Assembly (NCBI GenBank): GCA_018065305.1 | Contig: JAGHTO010000026.1 | Coordinates: forward strand, 1-64,000 | Direction: 5' to 3' | DNA length: 64,000 nt | From: Candidatus Cacconaster scatequi | Lineage (GTDB): Bacteria > Bacteroidota > Bacteroidia > Bacteroidales > UBA932 | Shown here: piece after piece, positions 56,063-63,987 of the stretch | Layout of the letters: every line of letters begins with the position of its first letter | Numbering within the stretch: the first letter of the stretch is position 1 | Notes under the pieces: generated by a model | What the model saw: only the letters and a program-made list of their open reading frames with translations | Told to the model about the DNA's origin: nothing | The model's database searches: none | Made by a program: the position numbers and the translations under genes

Positions 56063-58972
56063 TTAATTACGCTCCTGCCTTACAAATTTTCCAGGAAAAT
56101 CCTTCAGAAGGAATATTGTGAGAACCACACACATACAGAGCAACACGGCCATATTGAACCATAGAGTATCAATCTCATACCATCCCAGCACCTTCACCCC
56201 ACTGTAGAAAGGAGCCCTGCCGTTGCGGCTCTGCGGGGTCAAAAACACATATCCGCACCGCGGAACTATATGATTTCCCCTCACCACATACAGTTTCTCC
56301 GCCTTCCTGTTGAGAACAAGGTTCTCAAGCTGCAGGTTATGGTTGTCGCGCTTGAGCGCCAGCATCTTTTCCGAGCCGTTTTCGGCAATGAACGCATTGA
56401 CCTGCCTGTCCATTGCAAGGGTGGTGCGGTTCCCCCTGTCTTTCAATATCTTCTTGGCCTCCCCGATATATTCGGACAGGGATTCGTATGAATCGTCGCC
56501 CGCATAATCCTCTATCCCGCATATCCGGGCAAGCTGACCGAACTCGGTATGGATTATCTTCAGATGCCCGGGGTCCTCCTGACCTTCCTCCTGACGGAAC
56601 ATCTCGTCATATCTGGTCTCAACCTGCGATTCAAGTTCATAGAGGAATGCCTCGGCATAGTACATACAGGTATATTTGTCCCTGTCAGCCTCGTAGAACT
56701 GCTTTTCAAAATCATTCTTTGAGAAACTTGCAACGGCAAGAGCCTCGTATGCCCATCTGGAAGGAATCACGTCCCCTATCACAGGCACATTCCCCGTCTC
56801 GCTGCCAGAATTGAGATCATCGAAATCCACAACCAGACCACACAGGAGAATCTGCGGAATCAGCAGAAGAGGGATTGTAATGTAGATTGCCACGACTGAG
56901 TTCAGACACTGCGAAAGAAGCAGTCCGGTAAGACTTGCAAGGAAAGCGGAGATGAAGAGTATCATCCACCACTCCCAGAACAATCCGTGTACACCGATGA
57001 TAAGATTGCCGACCACTATGAAAAGGAGGGTCTGGACAAGGCATACGCCTGCCATATAGACTATCTTCGACCAGATGTACCCGGCGTAGGAGAGATTCAA
57101 GAACTTCTCCCTCTTGAGCAAAGCCCTGTCCTTGATGATTTCCTCCGCACTGCCGCTCATTCCGAGGAAGATCGCCACGATGATTGCCATAAAGAGATAA
57201 GAGGTGAAATTCTTGTTCTCCATCAGGCAATATATGCCGCTTTCAGGGACATAACGCGTGAGAACGGCGCTGATTGCCGCCAGGAGAGGTGCCTCTATCA
57301 ATGTGACAAGTATGTACTGTAGGTTCGTCAGCTTGGTGCTGCAATTGCGGCGAAGGAATATCAGGAACTGTCTCAAAGCGGAGGGACGGCGCTGGTCTGT
57401 CGGAGGAACGTCCGACACCCTGGCCGACTCCATCTCCGGTCTGCTGTTCAGATACATTTCGTGCCACTCCTTCGGCTGTATCCGCCTCTTGTCGGTCAGC
57501 TGCCCTGTAGCGTCGAGAGCCCGGTCGTCTATGATGTTGAGAATCACTTCGGGGTTGACGTTCCCGCAGGTCGGGCAGGCGGAAATGTCAGCATCGGCGA
57601 AATTAGCGGCACTCTTGAAGTATGACACAGCTTCGATGGGGTTGCCGTCATAGACCGGATATCCGCCCTTGTCAAGAAGCCACAGACGGTCAAACAGTTT
57701 GTAAACATCGGAAGAGGGCTGATGGATGTTCACTACTATCAGCTTGCCCTTTCCGGTCTGCTCCTTGAGAAGGTTTATGACCTTTTCCGTGTCGGATGAC
57801 GAAAGTCCGCTGGTGGGCTCGTCAAGGAAGAGCACTGCCGGCTCCCTGATAAGCTCAAGGGCGATGTTGAGTCTCTTTCTCTGGCCGCCGGATATGTATT
57901 TGTTGATGGGTGAACCCACCTTCAAATCTTTTGCGGCATCCAGCCCGAGCTGCGTCAGCATCCTGAGAACCCTGCGGTCAATCTCCTCCTCCGGCATATC
58001 GGCAAAACAGAGTTTTGCAGTATACCACAGATTCTCATATACTGTAAGTTCTTCAATCAGAAGGTCATCCTGAGGGACAAACCCTATCAGGGCCTTAGCG
58101 GCGGGCTCGGTGATATCGTGCCCGTTGATGGTTATGGAGCCTTTCTGCGGTCTGAGGCTTCCGTTGAGAAGCGACAGGAGCGTTGACTTGCCGACTCCGC
58201 TGCCGCCCATTATCGCTATCAGCTGGCCGCTGTGAAGGGTAAAGCTGAGGTTATGCATACCCACGTCACTGCTTTCATCGAATCGGAAGTCCACGTCACG
58301 TCCGCAGAATTCCACGTAAGTCCCGCTCTGCTCGTTGTCATAAAGCGAAACTATGGTCGAATAGTAATAGGGTTGGATATGCTTGCCCTTGAGGACTCCG
58401 CTCTGAAGCCACTGCTGGAAAGACCCGCTCATCACAGGCCTGTCATTCATCCTGATGTCGGAATGTCCGCAATATGTAAAATAGAGTATATTCTCCTCCC
58501 TCTGATACAGGGTCTTCAGTTTGCCCTGCCCTTCACCGAGGTCGATGACCTTCACGCCGTCATCCTCCTTGCCGGCCACAAAATTCACATAGTTCGAATA
58601 TCTGGCATCAGGTATCTCAAAGACCCGGGCCACTTCCCGGAATATGGGATAGTTCGGGTTGTATTTGTCCTCATTTGTACTGCAGAATTCCAACAGACGG
58701 AGAACCATAGCCCCCTGGCCCGTTTTGTCCAGGCTCCCTTTCAACTTTCCGCAGATTCCTTCCGCAATTGAATCCTTGTCAAGGTCAGGAACGTCATCAT
58801 AATAATCCCGGAGAGTCGTATAGAGATTGATATATGACTGAAGGTCCTTCACTCCGAAATTCGTCCTGAGATAATCGGAAATCAGAAGAAGGGATTTCTC
58901 ACGGTCAAGCCCGTTGTCCGAACCGAAGATTGCGAACAGATTGAGCAGACTTGATAATACGATGTCGTTCAT
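56063..58972 (-). CDS. ABCG-like transporter with fused ATPase and permease
   Basis: The 969-residue protein combines four parts. The first is an N-terminal helical region (about 1-130) with a TerB-like feel. The second is a beta-rich segment (about 140-235) that looks like a regulatory or FHA-like domain. The third is an ABC ATPase with Walker A GGSGVGKST (256-264), signature ISGGQRKR (360-367) and Walker B VLFLDEP (380-386). The fourth is an ABC-2 permease with about six spans from roughly residue 560 onward, split by a large charged loop at about 740-890. ATPase-before-permease order and TSGLSS-x-D after Walker B are ABCG-type. It follows the carrier-protein gene by 10 bases and is the last gene of the thiD-to-exporter block, so it probably handles the product or a partner of that pathway. 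Confidence 0.87.
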   Translation of the reverse strand: MNDIVLSSLLNLFAIFGSDNGLDREKSLLLISDYLRTNFGVKDLQSYINLYTTLRDYYDDVPDLDKDSIAEGICGKLKGSLDKTGQGAMVLRLLEFCSTNEDKYNPNYPIFREVARVFEIPDARYSNYVNFVAGKEDDGVKVIDLGEGQGKLKTLYQREENILYFTYCGHSDIRMNDRPVMSGSFQQWLQSGVLKGKHIQPYYYSTIVSLYDNEQSGTYVEFCGRDVDFRFDESSDVGMHNLSFTLHSGQLIAIMGGSGVGKSTLLSLLNGSLRPQKGSITINGHDITEPAAKALIGFVPQDDLLIEELTVYENLWYTAKLCFADMPEEEIDRRVLRMLTQLGLDAAKDLKVGSPINKYISGGQRKRLNIALELIREPAVLFLDEPTSGLSSSDTEKVINLLKEQTGKGKLIVVNIHQPSSDVYKLFDRLWLLDKGGYPVYDGNPIEAVSYFKSAANFADADISACPTCGNVNPEVILNIIDDRALDATGQLTDKRRIQPKEWHEMYLNSRPEMESARVSDVPPTDQRRPSALRQFLIFLRRNCSTKLTNLQYILVTLIEAPLLAAISAVLTRYVPESGIYCLMENKNFTSYLFMAIIVAIFLGMSGSAEEIIKDRALLKREKFLNLSYAGYIWSKIVYMAGVCLVQTLLFIVVGNLIIGVHGLFWEWWMILFISAFLASLTGLLLSQCLNSVVAIYITIPLLLIPQILLCGLVVDFDDLNSGSETGNVPVIGDVIPSRWAYEALAVASFSKNDFEKQFYEADRDKYTCMYYAEAFLYELESQVETRYDEMFRQEEGQEDPGHLKIIHTEFGQLARICGIEDYAGDDSYESLSEYIGEAKKILKDRGNRTTLAMDRQVNAFIAENGSEKMLALKRDNHNLQLENLVLNRKAEKLYVVRGNHIVPRCGYVFLTPQSRNGRAPFYSGVKVLGWYEIDTLWFNMAVLLCMCVVLTIFLLKDFPGKFVRQERN

Positions 58973-58982
58973 TTATAATGAC

Positions 58983-59213
58983 TTATTTGACTGAATCCTG
59001 TATCAGAACTATGAAATCATCCAGCGTCTTGAGGGTCCTGAGGCTTTCGTTGGGGATTGATATCCCGAACTTCGACTCAATTGATGAAACCATCGACAGG
59101 AGAGCGAAGGAGTCAAGACCGGCGAACTGCAACCCCTCTGACGTGTTAATCTTCTCTGCGGGGAGGTCCACATATTCGCAGACAATGTCAAGCAATTCTT
59201 TTCTTATGTCCAT
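58983..59213 (-). CDS. Acyl/peptidyl carrier protein
   Basis: This is a 76-residue free-standing carrier domain. The phosphopantetheine attachment site is S35 in FAGLDSFALLSM, within the usual four-helix layout (IRKELLDIVCEYVD; IESKFGISIPNESLRTLKTLDDF). The sequence is divergent from fatty-acid AcpP, whose site reads DSLD/DSLDTVE. Placed 3 bases after the AMP-forming ligase and 10 before the transporter, it should carry the unit that the ligase activates. No phosphopantetheinyl transferase is encoded in the window. Confidence 0.93.
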   Translation of the reverse strand: MDIRKELLDIVCEYVDLPAEKINTSEGLQFAGLDSFALLSMVSSIESKFGISIPNESLRTLKTLDDFIVLIQDSVK

Positions 59214-59216
59214 TTA

Positions 59217-60944
59217 CTAATAGATTTTTATCCCATTGCCTGAACATTTCACGGGGAGGTTTGTCCTTTTCACCTTTTTCGAAGAGGTCTTCTGGTATTC
59301 CTCATCGGGCAGTTCCACGTAACTAATGTTCTTGTATGAAGGCAATATCTTGTTAATCATTTGAATGTCCCTGGTTATGGCATCTCTCTGGCGGCGTTTT
59401 TCCTCATCCTTGATGTAGAGTCCGGCGCAAAGCACCTTCTTCTGGGTATCCCCGTATTTTGCTGGATAGACCACAACGTCGGTCACATAGTCAAGATGGA
59501 CCTCGATTATGTTCTCCACCTCCTCCGGGCTGATGTTCTTGCCGCTGTCTAAGATAATGGTGTTTTTCTTCCTGCCGACAAGTATCAGTCTGCCTTGAGC
59601 GTCGATATATGCGATATCGCCCGTGTGGAAATAGCCGTCCTCGTCAAATACCTGAGCCGTGGCTTCCGGATCCTTGTAGTAGTTATTGAAAACGCTGGGC
59701 CCTTTCACGCAGAGTTCTCCGACTCCGTCAGCGCTGTGTCCGTCTATCTTTATCTGGAATGAAGGACAGGGTTTGCCCACGCTCCTGTATTCGTCTATAG
59801 GGTCACTGTTCATCGAAATCAGAGGCCCGCATTCGGTGATGCCGTATCCGTTCTCGATACGGATTCCCAAATCCTTCATTCCCTTGACCACAAACGGATT
59901 GAGCATCGCGCCTCCGCAGACTATCATCTCCAGATTTCCTCCGAATGGCTCGTACACATCCTTGAACATTTCGTGCGTCCTGTCGATTCCGAAGAAGTTG
60001 AGGAAACGGCAGAGGCCTATCCCCTTCTTCAGCTTGTCCGCCTTTCCGGCCTTCGTCGCCCCGGCCCAGATGGACTTGTAGAACATATTGGCAATCATCG
60101 GAACTATGGTGATGCAGGTAGGCTTGAATATCTTGATATTCGTCATCATATTCCTCATATTGCCGTTGATGTAGGTCAACTGTCCAAGTCCGAGACGGAC
60201 CATTATATGGCTGTTGATTTCGGTGGCGTGATGGAACGGGAGGACACTCATAGCGGTATCATCCGGCTTGCCCATTATGACGTCATACCCGTTGATGATG
60301 TTCGCGGCCAGATTGGCGTTCGAAAGGACCACCCCTTTGTTGGCGCCGGTGGTACCGCTGGTAAAGAGAATTTTCGCGGGAGCCTCTCCATCGAGCTTGA
60401 TGTTGCGGTATACGCTCTCCTCCCTCAATGCTTCGCCCTTCTGAAGGATATCGTCATAGAACAGGTATCCGTCGACTCTTTCGTCAACGGTGATGATGGC
60501 CGTCACTTTCGGGCAAGTGGCGCAAGCGGCCTTCACAGTTTCAAGGCATCGCACCGCACACATTACCGCAGTCGTGTCGCTCTTTGCAAAGAGCAGAGCC
60601 AAAGTTTCGACGGGCGCATCCGCATCTATGGGTATAAAAACGCCGACACCGCTTGAAACGGAAATGTCGGCGATAATATATTTCAGACAGTTGTCGGACA
60701 CCATTGCGATATGGGCATCCTTCAGTCCCTGCGCAATGAGGCCGTCTCCAAGATTCATCACATCCTCATATACCTGATGCGCAGTGTGGTATTTCAAATC
60801 ATTGTTCCTTTCAAGATAACCGAACACCTTTTTGTCAGGAACAATTCTGTTGATTCTTTCCAAAAGGTCCCTGATATCCTTGTACATACCCTCCTTGAGG
60901 ATGGTATGGGCAAACGCCTCACTTAATCTTATGAATTTTCCCAT
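59217..60944 (-). CDS. AMP-forming acyl/aryl/aminoacyl ligase (adenylation enzyme)
   Basis: The 575-residue protein belongs to the acyl-CoA synthetase/NRPS adenylation superfamily, which makes an acyl-adenylate and passes it to CoA or a carrier thiol. Core motifs are intact: A3 LFTSGTTGANKG (193-204), FHHATEINSH (237-246), A5 NGYGITECGP (365-374), A7 YFHTGDIAY (438-446), A8 LVGRKKNTIILDSGKNISPEEVE and the C-terminal lysine in SSKKVKR (K557). The overall look is closer to fatty-acyl/AMP ligases than to amino-acid-specific A domains, but substrate specificity cannot be read reliably. It is 3 bases upstream of the carrier protein, which is the likely acceptor. Confidence 0.92.
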   Translation of the reverse strand: MGKFIRLSEAFAHTILKEGMYKDIRDLLERINRIVPDKKVFGYLERNNDLKYHTAHQVYEDVMNLGDGLIAQGLKDAHIAMVSDNCLKYIIADISVSSGVGVFIPIDADAPVETLALLFAKSDTTAVMCAVRCLETVKAACATCPKVTAIITVDERVDGYLFYDDILQKGEALREESVYRNIKLDGEAPAKILFTSGTTGANKGVVLSNANLAANIINGYDVIMGKPDDTAMSVLPFHHATEINSHIMVRLGLGQLTYINGNMRNMMTNIKIFKPTCITIVPMIANMFYKSIWAGATKAGKADKLKKGIGLCRFLNFFGIDRTHEMFKDVYEPFGGNLEMIVCGGAMLNPFVVKGMKDLGIRIENGYGITECGPLISMNSDPIDEYRSVGKPCPSFQIKIDGHSADGVGELCVKGPSVFNNYYKDPEATAQVFDEDGYFHTGDIAYIDAQGRLILVGRKKNTIILDSGKNISPEEVENIIEVHLDYVTDVVVYPAKYGDTQKKVLCAGLYIKDEEKRRQRDAITRDIQMINKILPSYKNISYVELPDEEYQKTSSKKVKRTNLPVKCSGNGIKIY

Positions 60945-60950
60945 AATTTC

Positions 60951-62300
60951 TTAAAACAATTCTGAGAGTTTGGAACCGGGGTTATCCAGAACCGTCTCGA
61001 TGTTATGGACCAGCTCGCTCTGGAAATCAATGAGTTGCTCCGGTGTAAGCATCACGGTCTGAACGTCATATACCACTTCTATCTCCCCGCTTACCGTATC
61101 GTGCATCAACGCAACGTATGCCGGAAGGGCGCCCTTCCTGTTGCTGTAAAGCTGCAGTTCCACACCCGGAGTGTTCAGGAAGGGAATATACGAGAAACAG
61201 AAACTGGATGTCTGCGACAGCATCGAATGGCCCCAGACCTTGTGCTGCATATCGTTCAGTTCGGTATATTTCAATTTGGTATGGCGGTACTGCTCATTCT
61301 GTTCGGCGTACATCAGCGCCACGTTGTCATTGAAAGACTTTTCATAATCAACCACCGTGTAGAGGCCGATTGACTGGACCATCGTTCCTCCGCACTTGCG
61401 CTCGGAGACCGTCGCCCTGGAGCTGAGCAGCATCAGAGGCATTGTGTAAGGCTTCCGCCCGTTGATCAGAGAACAGGTCAGGGCGTAAGAGAAGAAGAAG
61501 AACGATGCGGGAGGTATGTTCTGTCCGGCGCTCCACTCCATCACACGCTTGCCGACGGATGCCGGAATCCTGAAGCGGTAGCCCCTTGTGTCACAGCGAA
61601 CAAAAAGATACGGAATCGAGAAATTCCCTTTCCTGAGGCTCTTTTGCCAGAAATCGCTCCTGTTGCCGTGAAGCCCCTGATATACAGGATGCTCCGGATG
61701 TTTTTCCGTATAGAATGAATTCCAGTATTCACGGTCTTTCTGCAGTTCCTCCTCACTTGTGAGATATGCGTCATTCTTTGCGAGGACATTCTCAAAACTG
61801 GTGGGTGCGGGAGGCATCGGAGTCCCCTCCTTCAAGGATTTGTAGATTCCCACAAGGTCATTGACAAGGACGCCTATGGCGAAATCATCGGCCACGAAGT
61901 GGCTTATCTTGAAGCATACGAGTTGCTTGCCCTCAGGATCCGTGACGAACATAGGGCGCAGGACATCTCCCTTGAAGATATTGGTAGCTCCGTGTGACCA
62001 CCTTTCCAGAAACTTGTCAAAGGCCTTGAAAGAGGTAAACGTTTTCTCGGGGACGGGCCCGACTTTTCTTTCGGTTTCGAAGAACTGCATCGTCTTTCCG
62101 TCCTTCTTGACGAACCGGATACGGAGGCAGTCGTTCCTTTCTATCAGTATATTGATGGCATCGGTCATCAGTTTCCGATCGAAGCCATCTTCAAAGGTCA
62201 GGGAGAACAGGATGTTGACAACTCTCTTGAAGAGAGTGAAAAGCGTCTGCATCCTGACGACTTCCTGTGAGGGGTTAAGATTGTAATATCTGGGTTCCAT
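60951..62300 (-). CDS. Stand-alone condensation-domain-like acyltransferase
   Basis: The 449-residue protein has the size and two-lobed layout of the NRPS condensation/PapA5/WS-DGAT superfamily, which joins a carrier-bound acyl group to an amine or alcohol. The active-site motif HHxxxDG is present as SHFVADD (133-139): the catalytic second histidine (H134) and the structural aspartate (D138) are kept, while the first histidine is serine and the glycine is aspartate. Such changes are seen in enzymes that use free acceptors. It begins with NLNPSQEVVRMQTLFTLFKR, like the substrate-entry start of C domains. It lies 6 bases before the ligase gene, so the three proteins form a split activation-carrier-condensation set. 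Confidence 0.83.
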   Translation of the reverse strand: MEPRYYNLNPSQEVVRMQTLFTLFKRVVNILFSLTFEDGFDRKLMTDAINILIERNDCLRIRFVKKDGKTMQFFETERKVGPVPEKTFTSFKAFDKFLERWSHGATNIFKGDVLRPMFVTDPEGKQLVCFKISHFVADDFAIGVLVNDLVGIYKSLKEGTPMPPAPTSFENVLAKNDAYLTSEEELQKDREYWNSFYTEKHPEHPVYQGLHGNRSDFWQKSLRKGNFSIPYLFVRCDTRGYRFRIPASVGKRVMEWSAGQNIPPASFFFFSYALTCSLINGRKPYTMPLMLLSSRATVSERKCGGTMVQSIGLYTVVDYEKSFNDNVALMYAEQNEQYRHTKLKYTELNDMQHKVWGHSMLSQTSSFCFSYIPFLNTPGVELQLYSNRKGALPAYVALMHDTVSGEIEVVYDVQTVMLTPEQLIDFQSELVHNIETVLDNPGSKLSELF

Positions 62301-62322: not shown

Positions 62323-63117
62323 CTATTTCCAGCCTGAAATCATTTCATTGAGCATCTTGAAGTACTTGGTGTCGTACTCCGATTTGTTTGCCGTATGCTC
62401 ATAAATGCCTTTGGCGTAAGCCACAAGTGCGCGGGCCTCATCCCTGTCGGACATTGCCCCTATTGTCTTTCCTGACCATGGGCAAATATAGTCCACCCCG
62501 AGGGCACCGTCGAAAAAGGCATATTTGTCAAAATTGGATTTGTATTTTTTGGCATACTTTTCAACGTCTTTTTTTTGTGCGGACGAACGCTTGTCGGCAC
62601 TCCAGTTCCTGTCATACAGCATTTCGGCAAGAAGCGTATAGGTCTGCAACCAGTTTTCATCCTTGGGGATGCAGGTGATGGCCTTTCTGGTGAAGTTGAC
62701 CGCCGCATCGGTTGATTTGAAGGGGTGGCGGAAGTATATCTCAGCCAGTGCGTGCCAAGCGGCGGCATACTCGGTGCAATTGAGTTTGTCAAGAATCGTG
62801 GCGATATCATCCAGCATCTTGCCGACCGCTGAATTCTGCTCCATCATACTGCGGGTCTGACATTCGCGTCCCACGTTGCCGCATCTCCACATATATCCGT
62901 CGGGCTTGTTCGGGTCCAGCTTGATGGCCTCCTCGGCGTATGCAATGCCTTTGTTGAAGGCGTCCCTTTTCGCCTTGACGTCGGTTGCCGTCTCCCCCTC
63001 CTCAACCTGGTTCATTGCCCTAAGGCAGAGTTCCTCATAGCTCTGCGCAAAAGAAATTGCCGGCAGAAGCATCAGAGCCGCCGCGATAATCATTGATTTT
63101 CCGAAAATATTTTTCAT
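62323..63117 (-). CDS. Secreted helical-repeat (TPR-like) protein
   Basis: The 264-residue protein has a signal peptide (about 1-24, ending SFAQ). The rest looks like paired helices of a TPR-type solenoid, for example AFNKGIAYAEEAIKLDPNKPDGYMWRCGNV (about 52-81) and AAWHALAEIYFRHPFKSTDAAVNFTRKAI. It resembles the regulator-of-microtubule-dynamics-type TPR proteins of Bacteroidota more than any enzyme. It starts 15 bases after thiD and ends 22 bases before the condensation-like gene. It may be an envelope partner of the pathway or only a neighbour. A near-consensus promoter (TAATTTG) sits at the end of thiD. Confidence 0.75.
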   Translation of the reverse strand: MKNIFGKSMIIAAALMLLPAISFAQSYEELCLRAMNQVEEGETATDVKAKRDAFNKGIAYAEEAIKLDPNKPDGYMWRCGNVGRECQTRSMMEQNSAVGKMLDDIATILDKLNCTEYAAAWHALAEIYFRHPFKSTDAAVNFTRKAITCIPKDENWLQTYTLLAEMLYDRNWSADKRSSAQKKDVEKYAKKYKSNFDKYAFFDGALGVDYICPWSGKTIGAMSDRDEARALVAYAKGIYEHTANKSEYDTKYFKMLNEMISGWK

Positions 63118-63132
63118 AAATCCACAATCTCG

Positions 63133-63987
63133 TCAAATTACATTTTTCAAAGTTAATGGATTTTTTTTCAATAGCCAAAAATGATTGACGGGGCCGTGTC
63201 CGTGGCCTGTTTCGTAGCCGGCACCGGAAGCCAGGGCTTTTTCCAGATAATTTTTGGCAAGCCCCGCCGATTCGTCAAGACCGAATCCCTGAGCAAGATA
63301 TGACGCAATGGCAGAGGAGAGAGTGCAACCCGTGCCGTGGGTGTTGACAGTCCGCACATAGGGCGAGGCAAGTTCGACGAAACGGTCTTCCTCCGCATTG
63401 TAGAATATGTCTGTAAGCACCTCTTCATCCAGATGCCCGGCTTTCATATAGACGGAGACCATGCGGGACTCCGGAGCCGAGATCTTTTCCGATATGTTCC
63501 GCGCAAAACGGGGAAGGTCGTCCCGTGAACGGAGCTTCTCTCCCAGAATCACTTCTGCTTCAGGTATATTGGGAGTAATCACTCTCGCAAGAGGGGCCAA
63601 CCTCTCCTTAAGCATCCCGACCGCCTCATCCTCTATCAGCTTGTCGCCGGAAGTGGCGACCATAACGGGGTCAAGGACGATGTTGTCAATGTGAAATTTC
63701 TGAATCGCACCGAATACGGCGGCAACCGTGCCGGCTGTGCCCAACATTCCGATTTTGACGGCATCGGCGCCTATGTCTCCGAGCACCGCCTCTATCTGAC
63801 CGACGATTATCTCGGGAGGCACAATATGGACGGCTGACACTCCCAGAGTGTTCTGCACCGTGACCGCGGTTATGGCACTTGCAGCATAACCGCCCGTGGC
63901 GCTGATTGCCTTTATGTCGGCCTGGATTCCCGCGCCACCGCCGGAATCACTGCCCGCTATCGTCAAAACCCTTGGATAACGTTTCAT
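63133..63987 (-). CDS. thiD: Hydroxymethylpyrimidine/phosphomethylpyrimidine kinase
   Basis: ThiD phosphorylates hydroxymethylpyrimidine twice to give the pyrimidine half of thiamine. The 284-residue ribokinase-fold protein is complete. It has the N-terminal TIAGSDSGGGAGIQADIKA (about 9-27), TAVTVQNTLGV and the C-terminal nucleotide-site block NTHGTGCTLSSAIASYLAQG (about 215-234) with the anion-hole GTGC. Only 13 bases precede it in the window, so its promoter and any TPP riboswitch lie outside. No other thi genes are present, and the next gene follows by 15 bases. Confidence 0.95.
   Translation of the reverse strand: MKRYPRVLTIAGSDSGGGAGIQADIKAISATGGYAASAITAVTVQNTLGVSAVHIVPPEIIVGQIEAVLGDIGADAVKIGMLGTAGTVAAVFGAIQKFHIDNIVLDPVMVATSGDKLIEDEAVGMLKERLAPLARVITPNIPEAEVILGEKLRSRDDLPRFARNISEKISAPESRMVSVYMKAGHLDEEVLTDIFYNAEEDRFVELASPYVRTVNTHGTGCTLSSAIASYLAQGFGLDESAGLAKNYLEKALASGAGYETGHGHGPVNHFWLLKKNPLTLKNVI

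Follow-up and report, generated by a model that had tools for sequence, protein, structure and literature searches.

In silico analysis of the first 64,000 nucleotides of contig JAGHTO010000026.1 of Candidatus Cacconaster scatequi (GCA_018065305.1), a stretch referred to below as the window, revealed a unit of four genes on the minus strand, encoding successively a secreted TPR-like protein, a stand-alone condensation enzyme, an AMP-forming acyl ligase and an acyl carrier protein (ACP). The unit most probably (about 70%) represents a Bacteroidota branch of the free-standing fatty acid amide (FAA) pathway, which resembles non-ribosomal peptide synthetases (NRPS) and in which ligase, carrier and condensation enzyme would jointly yield an acyl amide. 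The FAA pathway was first described in gut Clostridia by Chang et al., as cited in PMC13142362.

Condensation enzyme and its kinship with OaaC

The condensation enzyme (449 aa; 60951..62300, minus strand) matches the Pfam family Condensation (PF00668) over residues 6-448 with an E-value of 3.5e-26, and is the single protein of its kind in the window's genome. Its best relative in the PDB is 12KH, recovered along the full length (profile positions 3-448) at E 1.8e-35 with a profile and at 5e-26 with a single sequence. This entry represents OaaC from Coprococcus eutactus, a free-standing condensation domain that joins ACP-bound fatty acids to amines (PMC13142362). The next relative, PvdL, scored 1e-18 with the profile and 4e-13 with the single sequence, its best stretch being confined to the N-lobe.

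The phylogenetic position of the enzyme was analysed in a tree of 49 condensation (C) domains: the window enzyme and its orthologues (19 sequences in all), 29 C domains of NRPS, and OaaC as the sole FAA reference. OaaC is the sister of the 19 enzymes with a support of 100/99, and the next branch consists of three starter-like NRPS C domains, the larger group being supported at 100/99 as well. A constrained topology grouping OaaC with these three domains was 21.8 log units worse and was rejected (p-AU 0.0077). The same arrangement, with starter-like domains next to the FAA enzymes, is found in the published FAA tree (PMC13142362).

Two further characters link the enzymes to OaaC; (i) the stretch bounded by residues 189 and 243 of the window enzyme has 54-55 residues in the 19 orthologues and 55 in OaaC, compared with 37 in most of the 29 NRPS domains, so that an insertion of about 17-18 residues is common to OaaC and the window family, and a 17-residue insertion has been reported for OaaC at that place (PMC13142362); (ii) of 49 alignment columns whose residue is fixed in the family and seldom seen in NRPS, OaaC shares 11, while any NRPS domain shares at most 6. 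The active-site motif is also altered in the manner of FAA enzymes. In place of the HHxxxDG motif, the window enzyme has SHFVADD at residues 133-139 (61884..61904, minus strand), and in all 19 sequences the second histidine and the aspartate are retained, whereas the first histidine and the final glycine are lost. The catalytic residues H134 and D138 are thus invariant in 19/19; the first position of the motif is serine (cysteine once) and the last one is mostly threonine. For FAA enzymes a (D/H)HxxxDS-like motif has been described, with the second histidine present in over 99%, the aspartate conserved and the final glycine usually lost (PMC13142362). Judged from the PDB match, the tree, the insertion and the fixed columns, the window enzyme is a member of the OaaC/FAA branch of condensation domains. 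Single-sequence AlphaFold models of the condensation enzyme (pLDDT 33) and the TPR protein (pLDDT 44) were of low quality and were left unused.

Distribution and organization of the conserved unit

A profile search with the condensation protein was carried out in 399 genomes of the window's taxonomic family, as well as in 295 genomes of the order and 395 of the phylum. Full-length orthologues were detected in 19 of the 399 genomes, spread over five genera, and a twentieth, weak match (G552) was unrelated by score. No orthologue outside the taxonomic family was found in the order or phylum samples, where the profile recovered much weaker, partial C domains, nearly all of them within long open reading frames of NRPS size. 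When one collection of reference genomes was searched with the enzyme, the sole yield was an NRPS starter domain from a metagenome-assembled genome (MAG) of Clostridia. Among the nearest NRPS relatives of the window enzyme is the first condensation domain of a two-module NRPS in a Clostridia MAG (L014, 3372-12642), which ends in a reductase-like domain and is encoded divergently from an acyl ligase gene.

The gene neighbourhoods of all 19 loci were read. The order TPR protein, condensation enzyme, ligase, carrier is conserved in 18 of them. The exception is genome G615, whose condensation gene is next to the carrier gene and whose ligase orthologue is located on a separate contig; a search of this genome recovered no TPR orthologue. 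The G615 unit is split across L070 and L093, with the LytTR (see below), condensation and carrier genes sharing one contig. Three genomes devoid of the condensation enzyme were checked for the ligase orthologue, and all three lacked it. Of the 399 genomes, 18 encode both the TPR protein and the condensation enzyme, one has the enzyme only and two have the TPR protein only, a co-occurrence with a Fisher p of 5e-28 that is not corrected for kinship of the genomes. In one of the two TPR-only genomes (G498) the end of the contig cuts off the TPR gene exactly where the enzyme gene would come next.

The condensation enzymes measure 446-455 aa in all 19 members, within the range of 300-520 aa set for stand-alone proteins, and the G+C content of the unit is near that of its surroundings in every locus. 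In the condensation tree the genera are mixed: the members from the window's genus (L022, L063, L065, L066 and L067) are not monophyletic, and two of them, L066 and L067, join the g2 members L071 and L072 at 100/99. This hints, on the strength of the tree, at transfer between genera or at uneven loss.

An earlier reading of the window from its sequence only, here called the sequence-only reading, had delimited four genes, those of the condensation enzyme, the ligase, the carrier and an adjoining transporter, as a split system in which activation, tethering and condensation are carried out by separate proteins. The re-read coordinates agree exactly in gene order and in the intergenic gaps of 6, 3 and 10 bases, all on the minus strand; Pfam searches bear out the type assigned to each of the four proteins, and condensation enzyme, ligase and carrier are indeed separate genes. 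The limits of the unit were drawn wrongly: the upstream gene of the secreted TPR protein belongs to it (18/19 loci) and the transporter gene does not.

Ligase and carrier

The acyl ligase (575 aa; 59217..60944, minus strand) matches Pfam AMP-binding (PF00501) with an E-value of 2.7e-53. Its orthologues are 53-61% identical to the window protein, have kept the adenylation motifs, and adjoin the condensation gene in all loci except that of G615. The carrier (76 aa; 58983..59213, minus strand) matches PP-binding (PF00550; E 2.3e-9) and is found beside the condensation gene or the ligase in all 19 loci, G615 included. Its phosphopantetheine attachment site, Ser35 (59109-59111, minus strand), is invariant in 19/19 orthologues, and one phosphopantetheinyl transferase is present in the window's genome.

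Secreted TPR protein

The first gene of the unit encodes a TPR-like protein (264 aa; 62323..63117, minus strand). Judged by eye, the window protein carries a signal peptide, MKNIFGKSMIIAAALMLLPAISFAQ, and most orthologues possess an N-terminal hydrophobic stretch. No Pfam family matched the protein above its cut-off. In G662, a genome without the condensation enzyme, the TPR orthologue directly precedes an RND efflux operon, a coupling which hints that the TPR protein works with export. At this locus (L106, G662:C80, 7282-13786) the TPR gene overlaps the operon by 4 bases, and the operon encodes a membrane fusion protein, an AcrB-type pump and an outer membrane protein.

Probable regulation of the unit

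Divergent from the unit, 12 of the 19 loci carry a gene for a membrane LytTR protein, which shares 42-82% identity with the LytTR protein of L067. The region between this gene and the unit contains direct repeats of 9 bp (similar to ATTCGTCAC), two as a rule and three in some cases, spaced exactly 20 bp apart; in 10 of the LytTR loci AAATATA follows them. These loci thus combine the features of LytTR-regulated operons: a LytTR gene and tandem repeats of about 9 bp placed about two helical turns apart in the promoter region that gene and unit share. The repeat pair occurs in all 12 LytTR loci and in none of the other seven. Counts of repeat spacing show a sharp peak at 20 and a second one at 40-41. 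In total, 16 pairs were counted in 11.8 kb of upstream sequence compared with one in 594 kb elsewhere, a count to be read as descriptive, since the pattern was derived from these very sequences, which come from related genomes. At the position of the LytTR gene, G336 has an AraC-type regulator.

The window contains no repeat pair anywhere and no adjacent LytTR gene. Its TPR gene starts 15 bases behind thiD, the last gene of a thiM-thiE-thiL-like-thiD run, and expression of the unit at this place may depend on the thi promoter. An Rfam scan found no riboswitch near the thi genes, its matches being tRNAs only. The unit directly follows a thi run of this kind both in the window's genome and in the close relative G498 (window 63118-63987; L022 9034-12245).

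Proposed pathway and alternative readings

In the proposed pathway, the ligase would use ATP to adenylate a carboxylic acid (a fatty acid being the likeliest candidate) and attach it to the carrier's phosphopantetheine. The carrier-bound acyl group would then be handed by the condensation enzyme to a small, freely diffusing amine, and the N-acyl amide would be released without a thioesterase. An acylated amine had been named as a possible output by the sequence-only reading, and it is here regarded as the likely one. Handling or transport of the product within the envelope is the probable role of the secreted TPR protein. The divergent LytTR protein with four transmembrane segments, present in most relatives, probably controls the unit there through the paired repeats; in the window's genome this control would be missing, the genes following the thi operon instead. 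A further, rather doubtful step from this pathway would be that the unit serves gut Bacteroidales as a self-contained signalling system based on an acyl amide: the signal would be produced by the three enzymes, delivered or bound by the TPR protein, and sensed, either itself or through its precursors, by the LytTR protein, which would switch the unit via the repeats. If true, such a system would be a quorum-type circuit based on the same chemistry that yields ligands of host G-protein-coupled receptors (GPCRs) in Clostridia.

Several observations weigh against assigning the unit to the FAA pathway. The identity to OaaC is about 23%, and the tree program flagged both OaaC and the window family as long branches; for that reason independent marks of kinship, namely the insertion and the fixed columns, were sought. 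The family motif, SHxxAD[T/D/S/L], departs from the one reported for FAA enzymes, the secreted TPR protein is without a reported counterpart in the Clostridia pathway, and the nearest solved relatives of the ligase in the PDB are luciferases, 4-coumarate ligases and fatty acyl-CoA ligases. The departing motif would also suit an enzyme that acylates an alcohol or a larger acceptor, such as an aminolipid headgroup, an envelope sugar or a peptide, the TPR protein then serving delivery to the envelope. The presence of the TPR gene in every locus but one, the hydrophobic N-terminus of most of its products and the coupling of one orthologue to an RND operon instead are consistent with such a role. 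This reading is nevertheless unlikely: the enzymes share both descent and the insertion with OaaC, which takes free amines (PMC13142362), and the neighbourhoods of the 19 loci show no conserved lipid, wall or glycosyltransferase gene next to the unit.

The relatives of the ligase, together with its best NCBIfam match, a long-chain-fatty-acid-CoA ligase subfamily reached below its cut-off, would equally fit an ordinary acyl-CoA ligase, with the carrier charged by fatty acid synthesis and the condensation enzyme using acyl-CoA or the acyl-ACP of fatty acid synthase. As both luciferases and CoA ligases are among the nearest solved structures, the PDB matches do not separate CoA from carrier loading. 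What makes this alternative improbable is the tight coupling of ligase and carrier, their co-inheritance with the condensation gene, and the finding that oleoyl-CoA gave no product with OaaC (PMC13142362). The model of the sequence-only reading, in which condensation enzyme, ligase and carrier form a new pathway served by a dedicated ABCG exporter, draws on the gap of ten bases between carrier and transporter in the window, and can hardly hold: the transporter gene is not adjacent in the 18 other loci, homologues are absent from 16 of those 18 genomes, and the gene is common where the pathway is lacking.

Comparison with known systems

The nearest counterpart of the unit is the OaaA/OaaACP/OaaC system of Clostridia (Coprococcus eutactus), which likewise consists of a free-standing ligase, carrier and condensation enzyme. 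The condensation enzymes of both groups are homologous over the full length and have in common the insertion, as well as a second histidine and an aspartate that are kept while the first histidine and the glycine are lost. The differences relate to the phylum, the low identity and the motif of the window family, as well as to its conserved secreted TPR protein and, in most loci, the divergent LytTR gene with operator-like repeats. The starter (lipo-initiating) C domains of NRPS, such as that of PvdL, share the acyl donor and the C-domain fold and form the next-nearest branch of the tree. However, they reside within multidomain proteins, keep HHxxxDG, have a 37-residue segment where the window family has 55, and use an acceptor bound to a carrier. 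A modular NRPS was considered and rejected, because condensation enzyme, ligase and carrier are all separate genes.

A separate AMP ligase and a small carrier also occur in Dlt D-alanylation (DltA/DltC), with which the sequence-only reading had drawn an analogy. In contrast to the Dlt system, the window unit includes a condensation enzyme, and its carrier is matched better by general acyl carrier proteins than by DltC. No DltB or DltD gene was found in the conserved unit by Pfam searches and reading of the 19 neighbourhoods. The dlt-type reading was rejected, and the analogy adds nothing to the description of the unit.

Nor can the pathway be regarded as new, as had been suggested: its logic is that of the gut FAA pathway (PMC13142362), to whose branch the enzyme belongs. 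The chemistry is already known, and it is the lineage that is apparently unreported for an FAA-type acyl-amide pathway. No Bacteroidales example, secreted TPR partner or LytTR control is described in the literature searched, a scope outside which the report of Chang et al. falls. The text of PMC13142362 makes no mention of Bacteroidota, its network of roughly 300 sequences lying outside that check. FAAs from gut Clostridia activate human GPCRs, which for oleoyl aminovaleric acid are GPR119, GPR132 and PTGER4 (PMC13142362). If this chemistry does exist in a second gut phylum, such lipids would have wider sources than assumed and Bacteroidales genomes would be worth mining for new ones. The secreted TPR partner and the regulator with its operator would provide handles by which export and control become directly testable.

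ABCG-like transporter adjoining the unit

The gene next to the carrier in the window (56063..58972, minus strand), outside the conserved unit, encodes a fused ATPase/permease of 969 aa with the Pfam domains ABC_tran (6.5e-35) and ABC2_membrane (1.1e-16). Its closest NCBIfam model is the ABCG "pigment precursor permease" TIGR00955, at 3.2e-75 and below the cut-off of the model. The protein is one of the fused ABCG-like exporters of Bacteroidota (969-1050 aa), which are not linked to the pathway. It had been proposed as a dedicated transporter, with a lack of co-conservation of the four genes named as grounds for abandoning that proposal, and for the transporter this is what was found. The gene stands beside the carrier in the window's genome only (1/19 loci); at E 1e-60 a full-length homologue is missing from 16 of the other 18 genomes that have the condensation enzyme, and in the remaining two the homologue (60-65% identical) lies elsewhere. 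Of 198 sampled genomes of the order, 86 have at least one homologue, as a rule with 38-50% identity along most of its length, and nearly all of these genomes belong to lineages in which the search detected no orthologue of the condensation enzyme. As a pathway member the transporter was rejected on co-conservation; because it is not co-conserved with the condensation enzyme, it is regarded as a chance neighbour. Residues 1-230 form a long N-terminal region ahead of the ATPase which has no Pfam match; in many homologues from the order it aligns over its whole extent.

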